A DNA stretch of 23,635 bases from a virus. Positions 1-23,635 of the stretch are shown here, piece by piece (the stretch's first letter is position 1; each line of letters begins with the position of its first letter). Made by a program: the position numbers and the translations under genes. The stretch spans positions 1-23,635 of IMG/VR virus record IMGVR_UViG_3300030104_005826. One strand, written 5' to 3'. Under the pieces are notes generated by a model, which was not told where the DNA came from, ran no database searches, and saw only the letters and a program-made list of their open reading frames with translations.

Positions 1-114
1 ACAACTTCGTAAATGATTATCAGGACGCATTAAAGATTCAATAAAGATAGCACGAGCTCTATCCCATTTCTCATAAGATGTTAATTTTTCATCAAGTGTT
101 TTCTGGTCTTTCAT
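1..114 (-). CDS. Partial small protein, C-terminus beyond the left edge
   Basis: An open frame starts with ATG at 114 and stays open to the left edge, giving 38 codons. The visible N-terminus (MKDQKTLDEKLTSYEKWDRA) is charged and looks helical, ending near RPDNHLRSC. It overlaps the 3' end of the upstream 61-aa gene by 23 nt, which fits the dense small-gene packing here. No clear Shine-Dalgarno precedes it and I recognise no family. The composition looks like a real soluble protein rather than a shadow frame, but the evidence is only the open frame and its position. Confidence 0.5.
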   Translation of the reverse strand, partial: MKDQKTLDEKLTSYEKWDRARAIFIESLMRPDNHLRSC

Positions 115-277
115 GTAAATCACATTGTGGGGTTCCTTGAATTAGTATTTCAACTATTTCTATTTTAGCTTCAGAGGACAAATTCCTATCAGATTTAACA
201 GTCTCTATAATACCCTGAATATCAGAGCATTCCATAAGTCCAGCGACAAGAACTGCAATCATTGACGTAACATCCAT
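92..277 (-). CDS. Small hypothetical protein, 61 aa
   Basis: A 61-residue protein starting MDVTSMIAVLVAGLMECSDI. The first ~18 residues are hydrophobic and could be a short amphipathic or membrane-associated helix; the rest is acidic and helical (IETVKSDRNLSSEAKIEIVE). It starts 8 nt after the stop of the 64-aa gene, with a weak AGGT-type ribosome site between them, so the two are probably co-translated. It overlaps the next gene by 23 nt. No family is recognised. Its position after the tail-fibre terminator places it in a run of tiny accessory genes typical of T4-like phages. Confidence 0.55.
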   Translation of the reverse strand: MDVTSMIAVLVAGLMECSDIQGIIETVKSDRNLSSEAKIEIVEILIQGTPQCDLHERPENT

Positions 278-285
278 TACTATAC

Positions 286-480
286 CTATTTAACAACTTC
301 CCAATGGTCATCACACGATTCATGCATTGAAAATTTATATCTACCTGAAATAGATGAAAGATATACTTTACCCTGCTGTCGTTTCTCTACACGACAAGAA
401 TGTAATAAATCCATCTCTTTAGAGAATCTCTCTTTTGCTTGAGAAGATTTTGGATTCACGCAAAGCATTTCAGTTTTCAT
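286..480 (-). CDS. Small basic hypothetical protein, 64 aa
   Basis: A 64-residue, lysine- and arginine-rich protein (MKTEMLCVNPKSSQAKERFS at the start, DDHWEVVK at the end). The C-terminal half (GKVYLSSISGRYKFSMHESC) could form a small beta sheet. Its ATG overlaps the TGA of the preceding 36-aa frame as ATGA (477-480), a typical sign of translational coupling, and the 61-aa gene follows after 8 nt. No signal peptide or membrane segment is seen and no family is recognised. Confidence 0.55.
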   Translation of the reverse strand: MKTEMLCVNPKSSQAKERFSKEMDLLHSCRVEKRQQGKVYLSSISGRYKFSMHESCDDHWEVVK

Positions 481-15267: not shown

Positions 15268-16050
15268 ATGATCATATTAACAGGACATGAAGGTTTCATT
15301 GGAAAAAAATTCCTTGAGAAATTAACAGGAAAAGAAGTAATTAAAGTTGAAAAGAATAACAGTTGGCATTTTCGTACTTTTAATGAATGGTATAAAGTAG
15401 AACTAATAATTCATCAAGGTGCAATCTCTGATACTACATGCACCAACCTCCAAGCATTCCACCACTTTAATGTAGAGTTTACTGAGTGGCTATGCCAACA
15501 AGCAATCAAACATCAAATACCAATGAAGTATGCATCATCTGCATCTGTCTATGGTAATACATCTGACACAATCAATCCCCTCAACTACTATGCAATCTCC
15601 AAAGTCATCTCAGACTATTGGGTACAAGATCATATGGATGAGTTCAAGTTAATACAGGGATTCAGATACTTTAATGTCTATGGAGAAGGTGAAGAACATA
15701 AAGAAGACCAAGCAAGTCCAGTATCCAAATTCACTAAGCAAGTTAAAGATACAGGAGCACTCAAACTATTTGAAGGTTCTGATAAGTTCCTTAGAGACTT
15801 TGTATGTGTTGATGATGTTGTAGATATTGTCCTGAATAATGATAAACCATCAGGTATATATGATTTAGGTACAAGTAACCCCACTAGTTTTCAAGAGATA
15901 GGAGAACTAGTAGCAGAAAAATATGACGGCACAATAGAATATATCCCATTCCCAGAGCACTTAGAAGGTAAGTATCAAACCTACACTTGTGCTAAAAAGG
16001 AATGGGATTATAAGTTTAAAACTGTTGAAGAGTATATTAATCTCCTCTAA
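15268..16050 (+). CDS. hldD: ADP-L-glycero-D-manno-heptose 6-epimerase (short-chain dehydrogenase fold)
   Basis: Converts ADP-D-glycero-D-manno-heptose to the L-glycero form, the last step before heptosyl transfer; cytosolic. Visible motifs are the NAD(P)-binding TGHEGFIG (residues 5-12), ASSASVYG (89-96) with the conserved Ser, the YxxxK pair Y108/K112, FRYFNVYG (132-139), and HKEDQAS (144-150), where K145 aligns with the second catalytic lysine of HldD (K178 in E. coli). KLFEGSDKFLRDFV (166-179) and EYIPFPEHLEGKYQTYT (224-240) are HldD-specific. At 260 aa it is ~50 shorter than cellular HldD (~310), mostly in the loop after strand 2. It is the only plus-strand gene. Its 3' end overlaps the convergent cupin gene by 14 nt. 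A host-type promoter, not a late one, lies in front. Confidence 0.88.
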   Translation: MIILTGHEGFIGKKFLEKLTGKEVIKVEKNNSWHFRTFNEWYKVELIIHQGAISDTTCTNLQAFHHFNVEFTEWLCQQAIKHQIPMKYASSASVYGNTSDTINPLNYYAISKVISDYWVQDHMDEFKLIQGFRYFNVYGEGEEHKEDQASPVSKFTKQVKDTGALKLFEGSDKFLRDFVCVDDVVDIVLNNDKPSGIYDLGTSNPTSFQEIGELVAEKYDGTIEYIPFPEHLEGKYQTYTCAKKEWDYKFKTVEEYINLL

Positions 16051-16399
16051 AAATTCTAATTGAATCATCATCAAAATGTTGGGTCGAGAACTCGAATAGT
16101 TCTGTGTCTTCTAAGGCAACCATTTGATGTCTCAACCCTCTATAAACATGGAACCTATCACCAGGTTCTAATATAGTTGTCTTTGCATCTTCAAGTTTAT
16201 CTGTATCACCATAGAATAAATGTATTCTCCCTGATTGAATATAAAAAGTTTCATCTTTTAATTTATGATAGTGCCAAGAACATCTCTTGTTCTTTTTAAT
16301 AAACAAAAGTTTACCACAGTATTCAGGAGAATTAGCAATCCATTTCTCATATCCCCATCCCTTGGGCACATGCTTAATAGTAATTAAAGAATGCATCAT
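16037..16399 (-). CDS. Cupin-fold protein (sugar-phosphate isomerase/mannose-6-phosphate isomerase-like), 120 aa
   Basis: A single-domain cupin. Motif 1 is intact as HYHKLKDETFYIQSG (HxH-x4-E-x6-G; H43, H45, E50, G57), and motif 2 is LEPGDRFHVYRGLRHQM (PGD at ~79-81, H91), so a metal site is expected. The opening (HVPKGWGYEKWIAN) resembles the C-terminal cupin of type II mannose-6-phosphate isomerases. An in-frame ATG seven codons further upstream exists, but I prefer the start at 16399, which overlaps the TGA of the oxygenase gene as ATGA. It is the last gene of the cassette and converges on hldD. The substrate is unknown. It could be a sugar-phosphate isomerase or epimerase, or a regulatory sugar-binding cupin. 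Confidence 0.75.
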   Translation of the reverse strand: MMHSLITIKHVPKGWGYEKWIANSPEYCGKLLFIKKNKRCSWHYHKLKDETFYIQSGRIHLFYGDTDKLEDAKTTILEPGDRFHVYRGLRHQMVALEDTELFEFSTQHFDDDSIRIFRGD

Positions 16400-17007
16400 A
16401 CTACAGGACCAAGACCCCAACCAACTATTACTCTCCTCTTACCTTTCGTAACAGGTGTAACTTTATGTAGCATCCATGAAGGAAACACAATTATTTCTCC
16501 TTTATCAAGTTTAATTGTTTGTTCATCTAAACTCATTTTTAGAATTAACTCTCCACCTTCATATTCATCTTTCTCAGATATACCTAAAGAAAAAGAAAGT
16601 TTACGAGAAAGTTCATTTTGAGGTATTTTATATCCATAATCAATATGCCAATCATAATGTCCTTTATATGATTCATCATATTCGGTATATTGAAAAGGTT
16701 CCCAACCATCAATAACCCATCTCCAGTGGTTGTCATTAACACATCTTATTCTACCAGTAATTTCCTCATATAAAGGCATAAGATCATCTTTATATTTTTC
16801 ATCAGACATCCAATTAATTCTTGCATTCCTTACTTTATTAAAATTTTTATGTTCATGATGATGTTTACCCACAAATGATGCCTTATATAAATGTTGTTTC
16901 TTTATATAACTATTAACTTTATCAATAAAAGAATCATCTACAAAATTCGTTGTACTAAAAGTTAGTCCAGGAAACTTAGGATTTAACTCAGAAAAAAACA
17001 ATGGCAT
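16396..17007 (-). CDS. 2-oxoglutarate/Fe(II)-dependent oxygenase (prolyl-4-hydroxylase-like), 203 aa
   Basis: A double-stranded beta-helix dioxygenase. The iron ligands are seen as H121-x-D123 in DWHIDYG and H181 in FPSWMLHKVTPV. Basic residues R191/R192 in the following GKRRVIVGW would hold 2-oxoglutarate. YEGGELIL (149-156) is the usual strand before the distal motif. The N-terminal ~100 residues give the helical support typical of PKHD-type hydroxylases. It hydroxylates an unknown substrate; with sugar-tailoring neighbours this could be the heptose, a lipid or a virion protein side chain. An AGAGG ribosome site overlaps the stop of the preceding HAD gene, and the cupin start overlaps this stop. 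Such oxygenases are frequent in marine T4-like phages. Confidence 0.85.
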   Translation of the reverse strand: MPLFFSELNPKFPGLTFSTTNFVDDSFIDKVNSYIKKQHLYKASFVGKHHHEHKNFNKVRNARINWMSDEKYKDDLMPLYEEITGRIRCVNDNHWRWVIDGWEPFQYTEYDESYKGHYDWHIDYGYKIPQNELSRKLSFSLGISEKDEYEGGELILKMSLDEQTIKLDKGEIIVFPSWMLHKVTPVTKGKRRVIVGWGLGPVV

Positions 17008-17009
17008 AT

Positions 17010-17360
17010 CTACCTCTTATCATTAAAGAATACATGATCAGGACATGCTTTATCATCTATAAAATAATCAGCATGTGGTTTACCCATGATTAGTTCATTA
17101 TATTTAACACCCCAATCATCTAATTGCTGTTTTGTAAGATTGAATAAAACCTCTTTAGCATTTACAGACGCAATGGAATGAGGTTGATCAGAGAATCTAC
17201 CCATAGCCCGTGCAGTGAAGTAGATAATATAATTACCCTCATCATAAAGTTTATTTAGTACCTTGATCCTATCCTGCCAAGGTTCTGCTTTATGGTAATC
17301 TCTACCCACAGTTGGAGTACAAATGGTACCATCAATATCAACACAATAACGCTTTGACAT
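17010..17360 (-). CDS. Small HAD-superfamily phosphatase, 116 aa
   Basis: A capless-size HAD hydrolase. Motif I is VDIDGT (nucleophile D8 and acid D10, numbered from the third ATG), motif II is FTARAMGR (T49), and motif III/IV is MGKPHADYFIDDKA (K94, D102/D103). All catalytic residues appear present. Three ATGs stand in a row at 17366, 17363 and 17360. An AGGAG element directly abuts the first, leaving 6 nt to the third, so the third is the best start. The gene overlaps the end of the kinase gene. Similar small HADs occur in capsule and LPS loci. It may be the working heptose bisphosphatase, since its GmhB-like neighbour has lost a motif residue, but the substrate is not shown by sequence. 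Confidence 0.8.
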   Translation of the reverse strand: MSKRYCVDIDGTICTPTVGRDYHKAEPWQDRIKVLNKLYDEGNYIIYFTARAMGRFSDQPHSIASVNAKEVLFNLTKQQLDDWGVKYNELIMGKPHADYFIDDKACPDHVFFNDKR

Positions 17361-18069
17361 CATCATCTCCTAATACATAAGTTCCTGTGTGCGAAACAGC
17401 AATTGCTGCTGCTCTATTGGCAAGAGGAATTGCCTCCTCAATACTACCATACTTTAAATATCCATAAGTAAGTGCAGCAAGAAACGTATCTCCTGCACCA
17501 ACAACATCGAAGACCTTCACCTTCTCTGCTGGATACAACTTACCTTTATATTCTGTACCTTCTCCACCCTTAGTTATAATCATATTCTCTGGAATAAAAT
17601 GAGTAATCTTTTTAAACTCATATTCATTAACCTTTATGAAAGCATTTCCTGGTATTGAAATCTTTTTAGTATCAATAAAAATTGGACCATCAAAATTATT
17701 ACAAAGTTCAAATAACTTAGTTTGTGATATAAAACCCTTATTATAATCAGATATTACAAGAGCATCATATTCACCATCAAGTACCTCATCATCTAATGGA
17801 GTAACCTCTGATTCTTCATCAAGACGAAGAATTTGCTGATTAGATGTTTCATGAACATAACGAGTCTTAGTAATCTCTTCTTCCTGAGTAATCATATCTA
17901 CATAAACACCCAACGCATTCAAATTATTATATACATTCCATGCCATACCCTCTGTTCTTTTCTCCCTCTTAGGTTCAAGAATAGGAACAGGGGCTTCTGG
18001 ATTTAATCTTTTAACATCGCCATAAACAAAGACATCCGTACAACTATCACCAATTAATAATACTTTCAT
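17338..18069 (-). CDS. rfaE1: D-glycero-D-manno-heptose 7-phosphate kinase (PfkB/HldE N-domain type), 243 aa
   Basis: Phosphorylates heptose 7-phosphate at C1, using ATP. It follows the HldE kinase domain closely: GDSCTDVFVYGDVKRLNPEA (residues 7-26, like the GD..LDxY.xG..xRxSPEAPVP of HldE), TKTRYVHETSNQQILRLDEE (67-86), ALVISDYNKG (103-112) and VVGAGDTF (189-196), with D194 the catalytic base. Two oddities stand out. It is ~70 residues shorter than cellular kinase domains, with a gap near residue 65. The usual PGGAAN substrate loop is TEGMAWN (39-45). Its ATG overlaps the TGA of the adenylyltransferase gene (ATGA) and has AAAGGA upstream. In most bacteria this domain is fused ahead of the adenylyltransferase; here the two are separate and in reverse order. 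Confidence 0.85.
   Translation of the reverse strand: MKVLLIGDSCTDVFVYGDVKRLNPEAPVPILEPKREKRTEGMAWNVYNNLNALGVYVDMITQEEEITKTRYVHETSNQQILRLDEESEVTPLDDEVLDGEYDALVISDYNKGFISQTKLFELCNNFDGPIFIDTKKISIPGNAFIKVNEYEFKKITHFIPENMIITKGGEGTEYKGKLYPAEKVKVFDVVGAGDTFLAALTYGYLKYGSIEEAIPLANRAAAIAVSHTGTYVLGDDDVKALLC
17367..17371 (-). promoter_or_regulatory. Ribosome-binding site deciding the HAD start
   Basis: AGGAG abuts the first of three consecutive ATGs. Only the third (17360) has a normal 6-nt spacing, so translation of the small HAD phosphatase probably begins there. Confidence 0.65.
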
Positions 18070-18473
18070 AAGTTTTTAATCCTTTCAATAGTTTTACTGC
18101 TTGCATATCCACCAACTCTTGGGAGATGTCTAACTTCACCTGCATGTTCCCATCCAACTACATCACCATCCCTCCAATCATCACCAAGTAATAGTATATC
18201 AGGTTGGTATAATTCTATCAAATCTTCAAGTTCTTGTCTATCCCCAAATGTATGTACAACATCAATATACTTAATTGCTTCAAGCATTGCAACTCTATAA
18301 GATAAATTATTGATAGGTCTATGATCTCCCTTATCATTCTTTATCTTCTCATCCGTATCAGTAGCAACAATAACTTTATTACCAAGTGACCTTGCTACTT
18401 TAAACAGTTGAATATGTCCTGGATGAAGTATATCAAATGTTCCATTACACCATACTATGTCAGTTTCTATCAT
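18066..18473 (-). CDS. rfaE2: Heptose 1-phosphate adenylyltransferase (HldE C-domain type nucleotidyltransferase), 135 aa
   Basis: Makes ADP-heptose from heptose 1-phosphate and ATP. The nucleotidyltransferase signature is NGTFDILHPGHIQLF (residues 10-24, with the HxGH motif at 17-20). DKGDHRPINNLSYR (47-60), PDILLLGDDW (91-100) and the GYASSKTIERI ending (122-132, equivalent to the ISTT motif) match the C-terminal half of HldE and run to full domain length. Related TagD or glycerol-3-phosphate cytidylyltransferases share the HxGH motif, but the RPVN-like HRPINNLSYR segment and the neighbouring kinase, phosphatase and epimerase favour heptose. It is joined by ATGA overlaps both to the GmhB-like gene before it and to the kinase gene after it. 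Confidence 0.85.
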   Translation of the reverse strand: MIETDIVWCNGTFDILHPGHIQLFKVARSLGNKVIVATDTDEKIKNDKGDHRPINNLSYRVAMLEAIKYIDVVHTFGDRQELEDLIELYQPDILLLGDDWRDGDVVGWEHAGEVRHLPRVGGYASSKTIERIKNL

Positions 18474-19144
18474 AAAGAATTAACAAACTCTAATAAATTA
18501 TCAAATACCTGAACATCAGTATACTTAGTATTAATACCTTTTAAATGGTCTTTCTCTGTCTTTGCACCTTTACCTGTCCGAACTAAAATTGGTTTAACCC
18601 CAAACTTTTGTGCCATCTTAATATCTTCTATTGTATCACCAACATAATACCCATCAGTCCAATCCATACCTATCTCATTCTTAGAACGATTCAACATTCC
18701 AATATTTGGTTTAGCATACTGATCCTGTGGCATATCAGATTGATTATACAAGAAACCATCAATACTAAAAATACCTGCCTCTCCAAATTGTTGCATCATT
18801 CGTTGCATAATATTCTGAACATCTTGGTCAGTCATCAACCCTCTAGCAATATTAGGTTGATCTGCAAACATAAATGCCTTATGTCCCTTTAATCTTAACT
18901 GACGAATTGCCTCAAGAGAACCAGGAATATATCTAACATCTTCATACCTCTTAATTACATTTTTCCATTCTATAACCACACCATCCCTATCAATTCCAAC
19001 CATTGGTTTTGGAAATGTAGTTGGCCAATCTTGAGGATTATATTGACCTTGTTGCTGTGGTGATTGACCATATTGTTGAGGCATCCCCGATTGACTAGGA
19101 GATTGCATCTGTGATGAGGGTTGTTTTGATTTATATCTTCCCAT
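18470..19144 (-). CDS. GmhB-like HAD phosphatase with low-complexity N-terminus, 224 aa
   Basis: Resembles D-glycero-D-manno-heptose 1,7-bisphosphate 7-phosphatase. It has GIDRDGVV (residues 50-57; D52 and D54), IPGSLEAIRQLRLKGHKAF (73-91), NIARGLMT (98-105), K145 in AKPNIGML, VGDTIEDIKMA (168-178) and ILVRTGKG (186-193). Two departures from GmhB stand out. Motif II reads FADQPN, with Ala94 where GmhB has Thr in TNQSG, and the Cys/His zinc loop before the KP motif is gone. The first ~45 residues are a Gln/Pro/Ser/Gly-rich tail (SQMQSPSQSG, YGQSPQQQGQYN) absent from the family. Translation from this start is supported by AGGAGG at 19155-19160 and the one-base TAATG overlap with the carbamoyltransferase stop. 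Confidence 0.8.
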   Translation of the reverse strand: MGRYKSKQPSSQMQSPSQSGMPQQYGQSPQQQGQYNPQDWPTTFPKPMVGIDRDGVVIEWKNVIKRYEDVRYIPGSLEAIRQLRLKGHKAFMFADQPNIARGLMTDQDVQNIMQRMMQQFGEAGIFSIDGFLYNQSDMPQDQYAKPNIGMLNRSKNEIGMDWTDGYYVGDTIEDIKMAQKFGVKPILVRTGKGAKTEKDHLKGINTKYTDVQVFDNLLEFVNSL

Positions 19145-20868
19145 TATTCATTTTCCTCCTCTACATTAGAAACTTTAATTAATTTACCAAGTTCTGGCAT
19201 ATAAAGATATTCTAATTTACTATTACTTAAAGTAAAAATAGCATCATCTAAAGTCTCAACTAATGGCTGTCCACCAAGATTAAAACTAGTATTGAATAAA
19301 ATAGGAACTCCAGAAAGTTTATAAAACTCATTAATAAGATTATAATAATTCTTATTCTGTTCTTGAGTCACAGTCTGTATTCTACAAGTACCATCTACAT
19401 GGGTAACAGCAGGTAATTCACCAATATGCTTTGGTTCCATCTCCATAGCATACATCATATAAGGAGTTTCTTCACATCCCCTCAAATCAAACCATTCTTT
19501 TGCATGTTCTTGAAGTATAGAACCCGCAAATGGTCTGAACCATTCTCTACCCTTTACTGTATTGACAAAATCTTTTCCATTAGGATCTGTTGGATCATAT
19601 AATATAGAACGATTACCAAGTGCTCTTGGTCCTGCTTCTGCTCTTCCTTGAAAAATAGAAACAATATTACGATCCTTAATTAATTGTGCTACATCATAAT
19701 CAGTAGCATCCGTCACCTCAATACCATCATATCTTTCCAGATCCTTTTCAGTATAATCATATTGTGGTCCCAAATAAAGTGTAGTTAAAGAATCTTTAGG
19801 TATCTCTATTTCATTTTCTTTCATATATTCATATGAAAAATGTTTTGCATATCCAACTGCAGTTCCACCATCATGAGATATTGGATCAACATAAATATTC
19901 AACTCAGGAAATCTTTCCTTGTAATAATAATTTGCTATAACATTCAATCCATATCCACCTGATATTACAATATTCTTTTCACCAGTCATATCAACTGCCT
20001 GTTCGATCAAATCACCTACATATTCTTGAGTTTCTTTCTGAACTTTCCATGCAAGATTCTTTGCAGCATCTGGTAATTTAGAAGGATCTCTATGCCATTC
20101 TCTGGGGTCTCCTTTTTGCCTTAGATAATCAAATCTCTGCTGGTCAATATGTGCTCCTGCAGGATATTGAGGGATAAAAATGTTTTTATCCCCTCTCTTA
20201 GTATCTTTATAAAAAAGATCAGGAATGTCTTTACATTTTCTACCATAGGGAGCAAGTCCCATTGTTTTTCCTGCTTCAATAAATCCAAATCCCAAATATT
20301 CTGAGACTGCTTCATATGCTTTTACAGTAGTCACCGCAGAATCTATTTCTCCTTGAGGAGAGGAAATATTAGGAGCATTATTCTCTGCATGTCTTTTAAA
20401 AACTGGTTCTACTTCAGTACCTTTACACTTAAAAATACTCTCAGTTTCATAAGCTTCTATTTTATTATTCTCATCAACTTCAATACCTTGACGACTACCA
20501 GACCCATCAACTATAACAGCAGCAGCACTTTCAAATCCAGATCCAAAAAATGCAGCATATGCATGACCATAATGATGCTCACCCCAAACTGCTGTTACTT
20601 TCACATTAGGATAATACTTTCTTACCAATGCACCATAAGAAATCTCTCCAGTCCAAGGAAGTCTATGCTCTTCTTGTCCTGTTCCACACATAATTAATTC
20701 ATCAATCTTATACCGATCAATAAGATATATCATTCCTCGATAAGGATTGCCATCATATTTTGAACGACTTAATCTTTCTTCTTCAATATAATATTCTAAC
20801 TTACCATCACATACAAGTGCCACAGAACCATTATGTCCTGGATTAATTGCCATTACATTATAAGTCAT
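19144..20868 (-). CDS. Sugar O-carbamoyltransferase, NodU/CmcH/TobZ family, 574 aa
   Basis: Transfers a carbamoyl group from carbamoyl phosphate (via carbamoyl-adenylate) to a sugar hydroxyl. Two domains are visible. The Kae1-like domain has INPGHNGSVAL (8-18), EEERLSRSKYDG (29-40), the metal-binding GEHHYGHAYAAFF (96-108; H98, H99, H102), VIVDGSG (118-124), SGGYGLNV (303-310) and SHDGGTAVG (331-339). The C-terminal YrdC-like domain has FQGRAEAGPRALGNRSIL (406-423), REWFRPFAGS (441-450) and FNTSFNLGGQP (525-535). Length and all key motifs are normal for the family. AAGGAG lies 8 nt before the ATG, and TAATG overlaps join it to both neighbours. With heptose genes around it, a carbamoyl-heptose product, as known at O-7 of Pseudomonas core heptose, is the best guess. 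Confidence 0.9.
   Translation of the reverse strand: MTYNVMAINPGHNGSVALVCDGKLEYYIEEERLSRSKYDGNPYRGMIYLIDRYKIDELIMCGTGQEEHRLPWTGEISYGALVRKYYPNVKVTAVWGEHHYGHAYAAFFGSGFESAAAVIVDGSGSRQGIEVDENNKIEAYETESIFKCKGTEVEPVFKRHAENNAPNISSPQGEIDSAVTTVKAYEAVSEYLGFGFIEAGKTMGLAPYGRKCKDIPDLFYKDTKRGDKNIFIPQYPAGAHIDQQRFDYLRQKGDPREWHRDPSKLPDAAKNLAWKVQKETQEYVGDLIEQAVDMTGEKNIVISGGYGLNVIANYYYKERFPELNIYVDPISHDGGTAVGYAKHFSYEYMKENEIEIPKDSLTTLYLGPQYDYTEKDLERYDGIEVTDATDYDVAQLIKDRNIVSIFQGRAEAGPRALGNRSILYDPTDPNGKDFVNTVKGREWFRPFAGSILQEHAKEWFDLRGCEETPYMMYAMEMEPKHIGELPAVTHVDGTCRIQTVTQEQNKNYYNLINEFYKLSGVPILFNTSFNLGGQPLVETLDDAIFTLSNSKLEYLYMPELGKLIKVSNVEEENE
19155..19160 (-). promoter_or_regulatory. Strong ribosome-binding site for the GmhB-like gene
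   Basis: AGGAGG stands 10 nt before the ATG at 19144, inside the end of the carbamoyltransferase gene. It supports translation of the unusual low-complexity N-terminus rather than an internal start near residue 48. Confidence 0.7.
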
Positions 20869-21812
20869 TATACTTTCTCCTTAATATCTTTTACAATACT
20901 CTTATAAATTTCATCAACTTCTTCCTCAGAAAAATCCATCAATTTATCATTCAATCTATCTGTTAAATGGCAGTCAAATCCAGCAACACGAATTGGTGAA
21001 TATACTTTCTCTACATTTTTATTCTCAATCATATTAAAATAATCAGGATATGAAACATTTGATGCATAAGTAGAACCCATTATAACTGTTCCAGGTATAT
21101 CAAATGCCCTTGCCATATGCTGTCCAACACTATCACACCCAATAAAGTAATCAACAGATTCTATTACAGCACTCCAGAATCGTAAATCTACACCTTGAGG
21201 TTTCTCTGAAATTTGATCATCTTGAGATACAAGATTAACAAAATCAGGTTCTGCCATCAATATAATATTATATTTTTGAGATAATTTCTTAACCAACTGT
21301 TGATAAACATGTGGTTCAATTGATCTGGTACTATCATCTATAATATCCCCATTATCTACCCTTGCAGATCTTCCAAATGGTTGAATGACAATCGTTAAAT
21401 CTTTACTTTGTTTTGCTTTTACACTTGCAAGCATATTAGCAGCATTTTTCTCTTCTGCTTTACAAAGATATAAATTTGGTTTACCTAAATCAGAATGATC
21501 ATCTGTTTCATTTATCTCTTTATCAAATGCTTCTGCAAGAGAACATTGTTGATTATAATATTCCCATTTCGTATATGGTTCTGGATGAACAATCTGATTA
21601 TCTTTAATTAAATTATTGAAAAGACCTTTCACATCCATACTATAAGTCCTCTCCTGAAGAAGAGGATTACCAAAATATAAAGTATCCCAACCACCAATAA
21701 TTATATTCCAATCTTCGTCAGGATGAAGTCGAGCATATTTTTCTAGTGCTGGAATTGCACATATAGCACGTCCTGCTCCTCCATCAATGGAGAAAACCTT
21801 TTTTCTTGTCAT
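20868..21812 (-). CDS. Glycosyltransferase family 9 (heptosyltransferase-like), 314 aa
   Basis: A GT-B fold transferase expected to use ADP-heptose. The N-domain has DGGAGRAICAIPALEKYARL (residues 10-29), a variant of the GDhllxlPal start of GT9 enzymes. The C-domain has TIVIQPFGRSAR (140-151) and the nucleotide-sugar site DYFIGCDSVGQHMARAFDIP (221-240) followed by VIMGST (243-248), equivalent to the usual 'GxDSGxxHlAxAxxxPvvxlfGxT'. Length is close to the usual ~320-350. It is the first gene of the cassette, with an AATAAATA late motif 40 nt upstream, and its stop overlaps the carbamoyltransferase start. The acceptor (host glycan, virion protein or small molecule) cannot be read from sequence. 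A non-heptose GT9 is possible, but the neighbours favour heptose. Confidence 0.83.
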   Translation of the reverse strand: MTRKKVFSIDGGAGRAICAIPALEKYARLHPDEDWNIIIGGWDTLYFGNPLLQERTYSMDVKGLFNNLIKDNQIVHPEPYTKWEYYNQQCSLAEAFDKEINETDDHSDLGKPNLYLCKAEEKNAANMLASVKAKQSKDLTIVIQPFGRSARVDNGDIIDDSTRSIEPHVYQQLVKKLSQKYNIILMAEPDFVNLVSQDDQISEKPQGVDLRFWSAVIESVDYFIGCDSVGQHMARAFDIPGTVIMGSTYASNVSYPDYFNMIENKNVEKVYSPIRVAGFDCHLTDRLNDKLMDFSEEEVDEIYKSIVKDIKEKV

Positions 21813-21886: not shown

Positions 21887-22834
21887 CTATGTTGTGGTAA
21901 CCCCCACAGATGCACTAGCCCGTAGAGGACAATTATAAATACTGACCTCTAAAAATAAATTATCTGATTCCCAATTAGAAGAAATACCAACAGTAACAGT
22001 TCCTATCCCTGTTGTACCTACTGGTGTTATTGTCATAGTTCCAGAAGAACTTGTACCATCATAATCATAATTAGTGCTCCATTCAAGATCTTGCGAAAGC
22101 ACTTGATTTGTAAGAGTAATAGTAAAACTAATACCTGCACCAGCAACAACTGTTGTTGCAGCTGCACTTACAGAAGGCGTTAATTGTGGTCTATCTTGAG
22201 CATAATAAAGATTACCCACTCTAGAATATTCTAGAGAAGATTCAATTTCTACAGGAGATGTTGACGCAAGAGAAATATTTACTGTTGTAATGCCAGCGAC
22301 AATACCAACGACAAGTCCTTCACTTGATACAGTATCTCCAACTTCAACTCCAGTGGTATCAGCAATACCAACAATATCAGTTCCTGCACCTACTGGACCT
22401 GATGAATCAACTGTAAGACTTCCTTTTTGAATCATACCAGTTGTAACACCTACCCACGAGGTAGTTGCTATTCCTAATGGATCATCATTGGATTTTATAA
22501 ACCCTAAAGCCTCAGGATTAATCTCTGAGTGTCCAGGTGCTAATGGCCAATCTGCCTTCTCAAACCAATAAGGTGCTTTTGCATCACCAGGAAGATCACG
22601 CAATTTTTCTCTATAGGTTGCCCATGCAGCCTTAGTGGTTGAATCTAATGGATTATCAGGAACCTGAGTCCAGTCTGATACTTTAAGTTCATCATCCCTA
22701 TAAGTTCTCAGTTCTGCGAATCCTGAAGTTAGATGACTTGTATGTAATTCAATCCTATCTGCTAACTCCTCCTGAAGATTGAATACTTCAGGTGAATGAG
22801 TTTCAGTACCATCCAAATTAAAAATAACTGACAT
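21887..22834 (-). CDS. Virion protein with tail-assembly-chaperone-like N-domain, 315 aa
   Basis: Residues ~45-85 (RDDELKVSDWTQVPDNPLDS, then TKAAWATYREKLRDLP) match the conserved core of phage tail-fibre assembly chaperones (Phage_tail_APC-like: 'R..LL..SDWTQ.pD.pL....k.aW..YRq.LRdlP'). Unlike free chaperones, it continues with ~80 residues of Val/Gly/Thr-rich beta repeats (about 120-200) and a C-terminal Ig-like sandwich (~215-315, VSAAATTVVAGAGISFTITL at its start). It could therefore be a structural protein that carries the motif, or a fusion of chaperone and client. AAGGGGG (22843-22849) precedes the start at 8 nt spacing, and the Cys-rich gene ends 13 nt upstream, so the two form one unit. 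Confidence 0.7.
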   Translation of the reverse strand: MSVIFNLDGTETHSPEVFNLQEELADRIELHTSHLTSGFAELRTYRDDELKVSDWTQVPDNPLDSTTKAAWATYREKLRDLPGDAKAPYWFEKADWPLAPGHSEINPEALGFIKSNDDPLGIATTSWVGVTTGMIQKGSLTVDSSGPVGAGTDIVGIADTTGVEVGDTVSSEGLVVGIVAGITTVNISLASTSPVEIESSLEYSRVGNLYYAQDRPQLTPSVSAAATTVVAGAGISFTITLTNQVLSQDLEWSTNYDYDGTSSSGTMTITPVGTTGIGTVTVGISSNWESDNLFLEVSIYNCPLRASASVGVTTT

Positions 22835-22842
22835 TTGTATAT

Positions 22843-22849
22843 CCCCCTT
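22843..22849 (-). promoter_or_regulatory. Ribosome-binding site of the 315-aa gene
   Basis: AAGGGGG overlaps the TAA stop of the Cys-rich gene and lies 8 nt before the ATG at 22834, supporting both that start and coupling between the two genes. Confidence 0.65.
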
Positions 22850-23635
22850 AAGCTGTTGTCATGGAACATGTACCAAAGCATGGTCTATCACAGGGTATAC
22901 CCCATATAGTCCAACAAGGCATACCTATCATCAGATCACCACCTTCAGTAGTAGGATAATTACCTCCTGCTAATACCGATTGGAATGGTGTTTCTTGTGT
23001 TCTTACACACATTCTTGTCACATACTTAGAAGAATTTTGCTCCTTACCCCAGAATATACATGCACAATTCACCTGTCCCTTCTGTCTCTCACATCCACTA
23101 TAATTATGACAATCACAACATCTTACGAATTTTTTATAACTCCAATCATACCAAAAACCTGTACCTAGATTTCCTGAAGTACATCCTTTCCATTTTGGAG
23201 CCATTATACAGAATTCAAAACTCCATGCATTATCAAATGAACTATTACAACAATAAACACATGCCTCTTTACCCATCCAACAACAACTGTAATGACACCA
23301 ACAACAACATGATTTCATTGGCCAAGCACAAGTACAGTGTCCTCTATAATTTTCGTTGCAGCAACAGAAACAATCATCACTACCAGCCCCAGGATAAATG
23401 TAAGTATAGCAACATGCACAATTCCTTACACCATTATAATGAATCTTAAATCCTTTGTATTTAGAAGTATCAATACACCATATTACACAGCATCCATAAC
23501 AATCAGTCCAACAAGGACAATTACAAATCATCTCCCAACACCCAAAACCAGGCATTACTAGGGGAGATGGTTGACATGCAGGAGGTTGAGTGGTAAGTTT
23601 GCATACTGTATCGCAAACAGCAGTACAAACTTGTG
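22848..23635 (-). CDS. Cysteine- and tryptophan-rich protein, 5' end beyond the right edge (at least 261 aa)
   Basis: An unrecognised protein. From the ATG at 23555 there are 235 residues with 39 cysteines (about 17%) and 13 tryptophans. The frame is also open upstream to the window edge and stays Cys-rich there (QVC, AVC, TVC and PAC), so that Met is probably internal and the gene is cut by the window. Cysteines occur as CC, CCC, CxC and CxxC clusters (CNCPC, CFCCC, CCCWC) next to aromatic residues. Recurring [N/H/R]C-x-C plus aromatic segments (NCACCYTY, HCTCAWP, NCACIFWG) hint at beta strands. The last ~45 residues (QSVLAGGNYPTTEGGDLM...) are less Cys-dense. No signal peptide can be judged. 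It is coupled to the tail-chaperone-like gene, which suggests a virion role. Disulphide-locked spike or metal-binding protein are both open. Confidence 0.7.
   Translation of the reverse strand, partial: QVCTAVCDTVCKLTTQPPACQPSPLVMPGFGCWEMICNCPCWTDCYGCCVIWCIDTSKYKGFKIHYNGVRNCACCYTYIYPGAGSDDCFCCCNENYRGHCTCAWPMKSCCCWCHYSCCWMGKEACVYCCNSSFDNAWSFEFCIMAPKWKGCTSGNLGTGFWYDWSYKKFVRCCDCHNYSGCERQKGQVNCACIFWGKEQNSSKYVTRMCVRTQETPFQSVLAGGNYPTTEGGDLMIGMPCWTIWGIPCDRPCFGTCSMTTA

Follow-up and report, generated by a model that had tools for sequence, protein, structure and literature searches.

In bacteria, ADP-L,D-heptose is made by GmhA, HldE, GmhB and HldD. Proteins homologous to the kinase, nucleotidyltransferase, phosphatase and epimerase of this pathway are also encoded by phages. 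Four of these gene clusters were placed by Sullivan and colleagues among the seven lipopolysaccharide (LPS) genes common to the cyanophages P-SSM2, S-SM2 and S-SSM7, with the choice between a function and stuffer DNA left open (PMC3037559), and heptose-related LPS genes have been named in another cyanophage (PMC7378029). The cassette described here consists of nine genes at positions 15268–21812 of IMG/VR record IMGVR_UViG_3300030104_005826. The window, meaning the whole stretch of DNA that was analysed, comprises bases 1–23635 of this 60,673-base viral record, and beyond it the record carries genes for the baseplate, the tail tube and the fibres of a T4-like cyanophage. The nearest relatives of the record are Prochlorococcus phages, Synechococcus phages and single-cell marine viruses. 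The phage pathway differs from that of bacteria in having no GmhA, a split and compact kinase, and a cupin in the place of GmhA. The cassette itself is not new; what is new is the apparent first-step enzyme and the likely target.

The gene set, which the sequence-only reading of this DNA had suggested looking for in other phage genomes, is found in the same order as in the window in P-SSM2 (PSSM2_307-313), S-SSM7, S-CAM1, S-CAM3 and Sf-FS3 (T4-GC 302-308), where it lies in the neck/tail-fibre region. The common order is a GT9-like gene (annotated as 'hypothetical' in the P-SSM2-type isolates), carbamoyltransferase, nucleotidyltransferase, kinase, small HAD, cupin and a divergent epimerase. The recurrence of this gene order in isolated cyanophages shows that it did not arise by chance. 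The window differs from these isolates in that GmhB is encoded beside the carbamoyltransferase, whereas the isolates rely on the small HAD. The closest relative is the marine virus AG-345-O18 (MH319759), with identities of 73% for GT9, 79% for the kinase and 78% for GmhB. There, GT9–carbamoyltransferase–GmhB and nucleotidyltransferase–kinase–HAD–cupin–epimerase form two blocks approximately 5 kb apart, whereas the window carries them as one run that looks like the joined form of two blocks of this type. The loci compared below were gathered through GT9, which is thus present in them by construction; they are phylogenetically related, so that the counts are not those of independent events, and many of the contigs are fragments.

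The favoured reading, to which we assign as a whole chain a probability of roughly 0.42, is that the phage converts sedoheptulose-7-phosphate into an ADP-activated heptose, which it attaches in carbamoylated form to its own cysteine-rich tail proteins. The pathway would start from sedoheptulose-7-phosphate, an intermediate of the Calvin cycle and the pentose-phosphate pathway, which the cupin, in place of GmhA, would convert to D-glycero-D-manno-heptose-7-phosphate. The PfkB kinase would then add the 1-phosphate, GmhB or the small HAD would take off the 7-phosphate, the HldE-II enzyme would form ADP-D,D-heptose and HldD would turn this into the L,D form. Finally, GT9 would transfer the heptose to a virion protein, most likely the cysteine-rich products of the adjoining genes, and the NodU/TobZ-type enzyme would O-carbamoylate the sugar before or after its transfer. 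Sequence and fold together establish the enzyme classes; the substrates, the order of the steps and the acceptor we infer.

It is very probable that a heptose nucleotide is produced. The family profile of the epimerase matches E. coli HldD (pdb 1eq2) at 2.1e-57 with the catalytic S/Y/K/K positions aligned, and that of the kinase matches HldA (4e84) at 2.6e-27, compared with 3e-11 for ribokinase. These profiles, specifically closest to HldD and HldA, lend good support to the ADP-heptose pathway proposed in the sequence-only reading; with regard to the subfamilies on which that reading depended, the kinase is of the heptose type and GT9 was placed by its fold. Against curated models the epimerase scores 208 bits (TIGR02197, cut-off 274.6), the compact kinase of 243 amino acids scores 141 bits (TIGR02198, cut-off 345), and the nucleotidyltransferase scores 105 bits with TIGR02199, below its cut-off, compared with 69 for glycerol-3-phosphate cytidylyltransferase. 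The best solved relatives of the GmhB-like protein are GmhB enzymes (4pnh, 3l8e and 2gmw). The pathway had been described as near-complete, which is correct for the kinase, nucleotidyltransferase, GmhB and HldD; GmhA is missing, and the cupin had been overlooked as its possible replacement. Low-complexity extensions rich in Gln and Pro are present at the N-terminus of GmhB (window 19010-19144, approximately 45 amino acids) and at the C-termini of GT9 in isolates (L002 and L004).

No GmhA-type SIS_2 domain was found in the phage's own 60.7-kb record (a fragment), in 50 GT9-bearing viral records or in eight complete cassette phages, and no broader SIS domain was found in four of these eight, in a search that recovered the known isomerase of RB69 as positive control. 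A cupin is encoded in all 35 loci that contain both kinase and epimerase, and it accompanies the kinase even in the differently composed clusters of S-SM2, P-TIM68 and S-T4. Its metal ligands, H50, H52, E57 and H98, form a 3-His 1-Glu site that is invariant across 30 sequences. Beyond generic cupin models the most frequent Pfam matches, all weak and below cut-off, are to Lyx_isomer (23/30 members) and MannoseP_isomer (17/30), and the window cupin reaches 16.1 bits with Lyx_isomer against a curated cut-off of 20.8. A profile search of PDB returned D-lyxose isomerase 2y0o, with which an NxxYCxK motif is held in common, and also 7nzo. The D-lyxose/D-mannose isomerases and the cupin phosphomannose isomerases share the cupin fold and the His-x-His...Glu...His ligands with the phage protein, but identity is only 22–26%, under the family cut-offs, and the substrate proposed here is a heptose phosphate. 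D-lyxose and mannose-6-phosphate isomerases bring about the same C1/C2 ketose-to-manno-aldose change as GmhA. In databases the cupin is labelled 'cysteine dioxygenase' or 'putative nucleotidyltransferase', and a search of limited literature found nothing that combines cupin, sedoheptulose and heptose.

The hosts were surveyed in 151 near-complete genomes of the Prochlorococcus/Synechococcus family. A GmhA-like gene is present in 28 of these and a strong heptokinase in 16, which indicates that the hosts generally do not fill the missing GmhA step. These counts agree with the statement in the sequence-only reading that marine picocyanobacterial LPS is reported to lack heptose, as does a review in which cyanobacterial LPS is described as free of Kdo and heptose (PMC4390846). 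Among the 16 genomes with heptokinase the phage pattern is reversed, with GmhA in 15/16 and a phage-like cupin in 0/16, although Fisher values calculated on this pattern ignore relatedness. Six host-family genomes (G040, G083, G101, G104, G164 and G168), all without strong heptokinase, encode a cupin that resembles the phage type and are possible donors. A search of the 151 genomes for GT9-like genes gave one marginal match, so no host donor was found for GT9.

The absence of GmhA, the co-occurrence with the kinase, the mannose-type ketol isomerases as nearest specific relatives and the reversed host pattern together make the cupin the best isomerase candidate, and it is probably a non-homologous replacement for GmhA. 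It is nevertheless quite conceivable that the host or an unrecognised enzyme supplies the GmhA activity and that the cupin carries out, for example, another sugar tailoring step. Cupin folds are multifunctional, WbuC-like and oxalate-decarboxylase-like cupins score alike, and some host-family genomes do hold a GmhA-like gene; however, 123 of the 151 give no such match, the cupin tracks the kinase even in differing clusters, and the D-lyxose and mannose-6-phosphate isomerases, with their GmhA-like chemistry, are its most frequent specific Pfam matches. In the GT9-less cassettes of S-SM2 (L182:4422-5630) and P-TIM68 (L183:7768-8913), a gene annotated as 'transketolase central region' is located upstream of the heptose kinase, either immediately or with one gene in between. 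As transketolase makes sedoheptulose-7-phosphate, the supply of substrate may be phage-encoded in these two phages.

The small HAD was considered as the missing isomerase and ruled out, since it has HAD motifs, matches HAD-type proteins and contains no SIS domain. It is this protein that carries the label 'phosphoheptose isomerase', which concerns 385 phage records and has spread through T4-like phages including RB69. Among the 35 loci with kinase and epimerase, the small HAD alone is present in 19 and GmhB alone in 13; two have neither phosphatase, and the window is the one locus with both, a combination also seen in AG-345-O18. Because the two are nearly mutually exclusive, the small HAD is proposed as an alternative phosphatase, and the distribution suggests that it acts on the heptose bisphosphate. 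A search of viral contigs with the single window sequence gave no relatives of GmhB, whereas a profile search of the collected GT9 loci gave 28.

The GT9 gene has no Pfam match, and its profile gave no match to PDB sequences. The structure prediction is confident (pLDDT 89) and settles the fold, which is nearest to WaaF, TibC and WaaC: a fold search returned 3tov (Z 24.0), 1psw (21.8), 4rb4 (20.7) and 2gt1 (20.1), compared with at most 12.4 for clearly unrelated folds. Subunits of the plant NDH-PSI supercomplex (7wff_a, 9grx_1 and 7f9o_6; chloroplast NDH-complex) also match this fold, at Z 18.6–19.6. HHalign of the GT9 profile with an approximate WaaC sequence gave a weak match confined to the C-lobe. 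The WaaC/WaaF and TibC/BAHT heptosyltransferases have the fold and the C-lobe DSxG(x)H donor motif in common with the phage enzyme, in which the counterpart of WaaC Asp261 is retained in a DSxGQH motif (86/89 sequences). The N-terminal domain that precedes the glycosyltransferase fold in TibC/BAHT has no counterpart in the phage protein, the alignment starting at TibC residue 92 and phage residue 1. Unlike WaaC/WaaF, the phage enzyme has a GGxGR motif, present in 89/89 sequences, with an invariant Arg where heptosyltransferases have a catalytic Asp. By motif register and by the aligned ranges (model 3..314 to WaaC 1..324), the Arg corresponds to WaaC Asp13, for which a role as catalytic base has been proposed (PMC5713226). 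The description of the gene as heptosyltransferase-like in the sequence-only reading thus holds for the fold, whereas the catalytic Asp of characterised heptosyltransferases is not there; as modelled, the enzyme is a GT9 by fold and not a standard heptosyltransferase by its active site.

The linkage of GT9 to the carbamoyltransferase was counted in the 77 loci with at least 2 kb of sequence after GT9. The carbamoyltransferase follows in 75 of these, directly in 64 and with a separation of roughly one gene length in the other 11. It had been recognised from the sequence as NodU-type, and both of its domains (Carbam_trans_N and Carbam_trans_C) indeed score above the Pfam cut-off. The nearest solved structures are sugar and antibiotic O-carbamoyltransferases; TobZ, GdmN and NodU have both domains in common with the phage enzyme (7e-73 to 1e-60 to solved members), which differs in being encoded next to GT9 in almost all of the loci studied. 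Four loci (L044, L059, L063 and L073) have two GT9 copies around one carbamoyltransferase, in the order GT9–carbamoyltransferase–GT9.

The likely acceptor is suggested by the genes on the other side of GT9. A cysteine-rich open reading frame (ORF), defined as one with at least 4% Cys (usually approximately 10%) within 6 kb and on the same strand, lies upstream of GT9 in 70 of the 77 loci with enough sequence, compared with 1.6% of 803 other ORFs. Altogether, 163 ORFs with at least 6% Cys were counted in 72 GT9 loci, often three in succession and also rich in Gly and Trp. Most of those scanned had no Pfam or PHROG function; some contain PF21722, a glycine-rich domain that the phage's own 1057-residue fibre-like protein has as well. 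The window holds one such gene (22848-23555, 39 Cys in 235 amino acids), and a second (741 amino acids, 75 Cys, L088:699-2924) is situated just past the window, both proteins being rich in Trp as well. In 13 of 45 loci the gene adjoining GT9 upstream encodes a tail-assembly-chaperone domain (Phage_tail_APC). Five GT9-bearing isolates have 2–3 cysteine-rich genes each, and S-T4, which has no GT9, showed no comparable gene in the approximately 163 of 181 kb searched; S-T4 and S-CAM1 were isolated on the same host strain, WH7803. A Vibrio phage and an Aeromonas phage have GT9 relatives but no heptokinase, the former beside a tail gene and the latter beside a Cys-enriched gene; hosts of the Vibrio/Aeromonas type normally make ADP-heptose themselves. 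On this gene neighbourhood, decoration of the virion is favoured over remodelling of the host surface for the GT9–carbamoyltransferase form, and the acceptor appears rather more likely than otherwise to be a virion protein.

Several points weigh against this chain. The kinase, nucleotidyltransferase, epimerase and GmhB all fall below the NCBIfam curated cut-offs, which marks them as divergent, compact members of their families. The best solved relative of the nucleotidyltransferase profile is a cytidylyltransferase, so that ADP rather than CDP can only be presumed for this enzyme. The cupin fold matches do not discriminate, lying at Z 13.7–15.8 for many functions, and GT9 is without the WaaC catalytic Asp. 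Of 60 GT9 loci with long flanks, 25 have no kinase or nucleotidyltransferase nearby; 13 IMG/VR contigs in which the kinase was not seen at first look do carry it elsewhere. Finally, the cassette has a second form in S-SM2 and P-TIM68, which lacks GT9 and belongs to a polysaccharide-type cluster.

One alternative is that the carbamoylated heptose is placed on the LPS or capsule of the infected cell, for instance to block superinfection. In its favour, such genes have been read as LPS genes in the literature (PMC3037559, PMC7378029), the heptose genes of S-SM2, P-TIM68 and S-T4 are clustered with several glycosyltransferases close to genes for photosynthesis and phosphate, and the top fold neighbours WaaC and WaaF work on the LPS core. 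However, with GT9 and the carbamoyltransferase present the cassette is inside the tail/neck region, by tail-chaperone and cysteine-rich genes, and the Vibrio and Aeromonas phage members lie by the tail region. Cyanobacterial LPS, moreover, has no Kdo-heptose core, the structure to which GT9 LPS enzymes add (PMC4390846). The sequence-only reading had left the choice between host surface and the phage's own fibres open; the virion is now favoured for the GT9–carbamoyltransferase form, the second form being the exception. Host-surface remodelling is unlikely as a general explanation, but possible, particularly for the GT9-less cassettes.

With the virion as target, it can be speculated, in a manner consistent with the data but rather improbable, that this branch of GT9 is an S-glycosyltransferase which attaches (carbamoyl-)heptose from the cupin-started, GmhA-free pathway to thiol groups of the cysteine-rich tail proteins encoded nearby. 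Since a thiolate can do without a general base, the invariant Arg in place of the catalytic Asp would be explained, and cysteine thiols as acceptor would account for the tracking of GT9 by proteins with approximately 10% Cys and CC and CCC runs. In S-T4 (L190:43855-49304) a NodU-like carbamoyltransferase and a predicted galactose-3-O-sulfotransferase lie beside tail-fibre genes without GT9, which points to other sugar decorations near fibres.

Modification of DNA, with the carbamoyltransferase and GT9 acting on a modified base as in 5-hydroxymethylcytosine carbamoylation or the arabinosylation of RB69, is very improbable. A phage enzyme of the NodU family does carbamoylate 5-hydroxymethylcytosine (PMC8670742), and RB69-type phages likewise encode the small HAD, adjoining an arabinose-5-phosphate isomerase. 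However, the partner hydroxymethylase of thymidylate-synthase fold, the lack of which makes DNA modification unlikely, was found in none of the phage's own record and the eight complete cassette phages, whereas the RB69 control gave two; moreover, the cassette stands among tail genes and GT9 relatives use lipid or protein acceptors. Non-functional ballast for headful packaging, raised as a possibility in 2010 (PMC3037559), can practically be dismissed, as active-site residues are invariant across deeply diverged phages, gene sets are conserved and the open frames overlap.

The cassette forms one block of overlapping genes set within the tail-gene region (Table 1). Adjacent genes overlap or almost abut, with gaps of -29 to +2 bases, and the epimerase is opposed in strand to the other eight. 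All the genes named in the sequence-only reading are present where it had placed them; the cupin, the 2-oxoglutarate (2OG)-Fe(II) oxygenase and the second, small HAD had gone unnamed. The oxygenase is accessory and is missing from some cassettes. The true start of the cupin is probably an ATG slightly downstream of the annotated start of its frame.

Table 1. Genes of the cassette and of the adjoining upstream region, in window positions.
Feature	Position	Strand	Remarks
HldD-type ADP-heptose 6-epimerase	15268..16050	+	260 aa; motifs ASSASVYG, YxxxK, EEHK
Cupin, proposed sedoheptulose-7-phosphate isomerase	16037..16420	-	model pLDDT 91.8; ligands H50, H52, E57, H98
2OG-Fe(II) oxygenase (PKHD/PiuC-like)	16396..17007	-	PF13640 7e-15
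Small HAD phosphatase (EcbF/BcbF-like)	17010..17366	-	TIGR01689 2.7e-9; 9iqw, 1xpj
Compact PfkB-type D,D-heptose-7-phosphate 1-kinase (HldA/HldE-I)	17338..18069	-	TIGR02198; 243 aa
HldE-II type heptose-1-phosphate nucleotidyltransferase (ADP presumed)	18066..18473	-	TIGR02199
GmhB-type heptose-1,7-bisphosphate 7-phosphatase	18470..19144	-	NF006506 101 bits; 4pnh, 3l8e, 2gmw
NodU/TobZ-type O-carbamoyltransferase	19144..20868	-	PF16861 5e-60, PF02543 1e-16
GT9-fold glycosyltransferase	20868..21812	-	fold search; GGAGR and DSVGQH donor motif
Phage_tail_APC domain protein, directly upstream of GT9	21887..22834	-	PF16778 2e-15
Cysteine-rich protein	22848..23555	-	39 Cys in 235 aa; proposed acceptor or member of acceptor set

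Cyanophages belong to the most abundant of all viruses on Earth, and since 2010 no function has been agreed for their 'LPS genes'. In the reading favoured here these genes become a testable pathway that leads from sedoheptulose-7-phosphate, one of the major intermediates of photosynthetic cells, to a heptose nucleotide, apparently in the absence of the textbook first enzyme and in hosts that mostly do not have the sugar. The annotation of hundreds of T4-like phage records would be corrected accordingly: their 'phosphoheptose isomerase' is a HAD phosphatase, and the likely isomerase is the neighbouring cupin. The pathway is also linked to cysteine-rich proteins encoded in the tail-gene region, a family that had not been remarked on before, and this link points to chemical decoration of virions.

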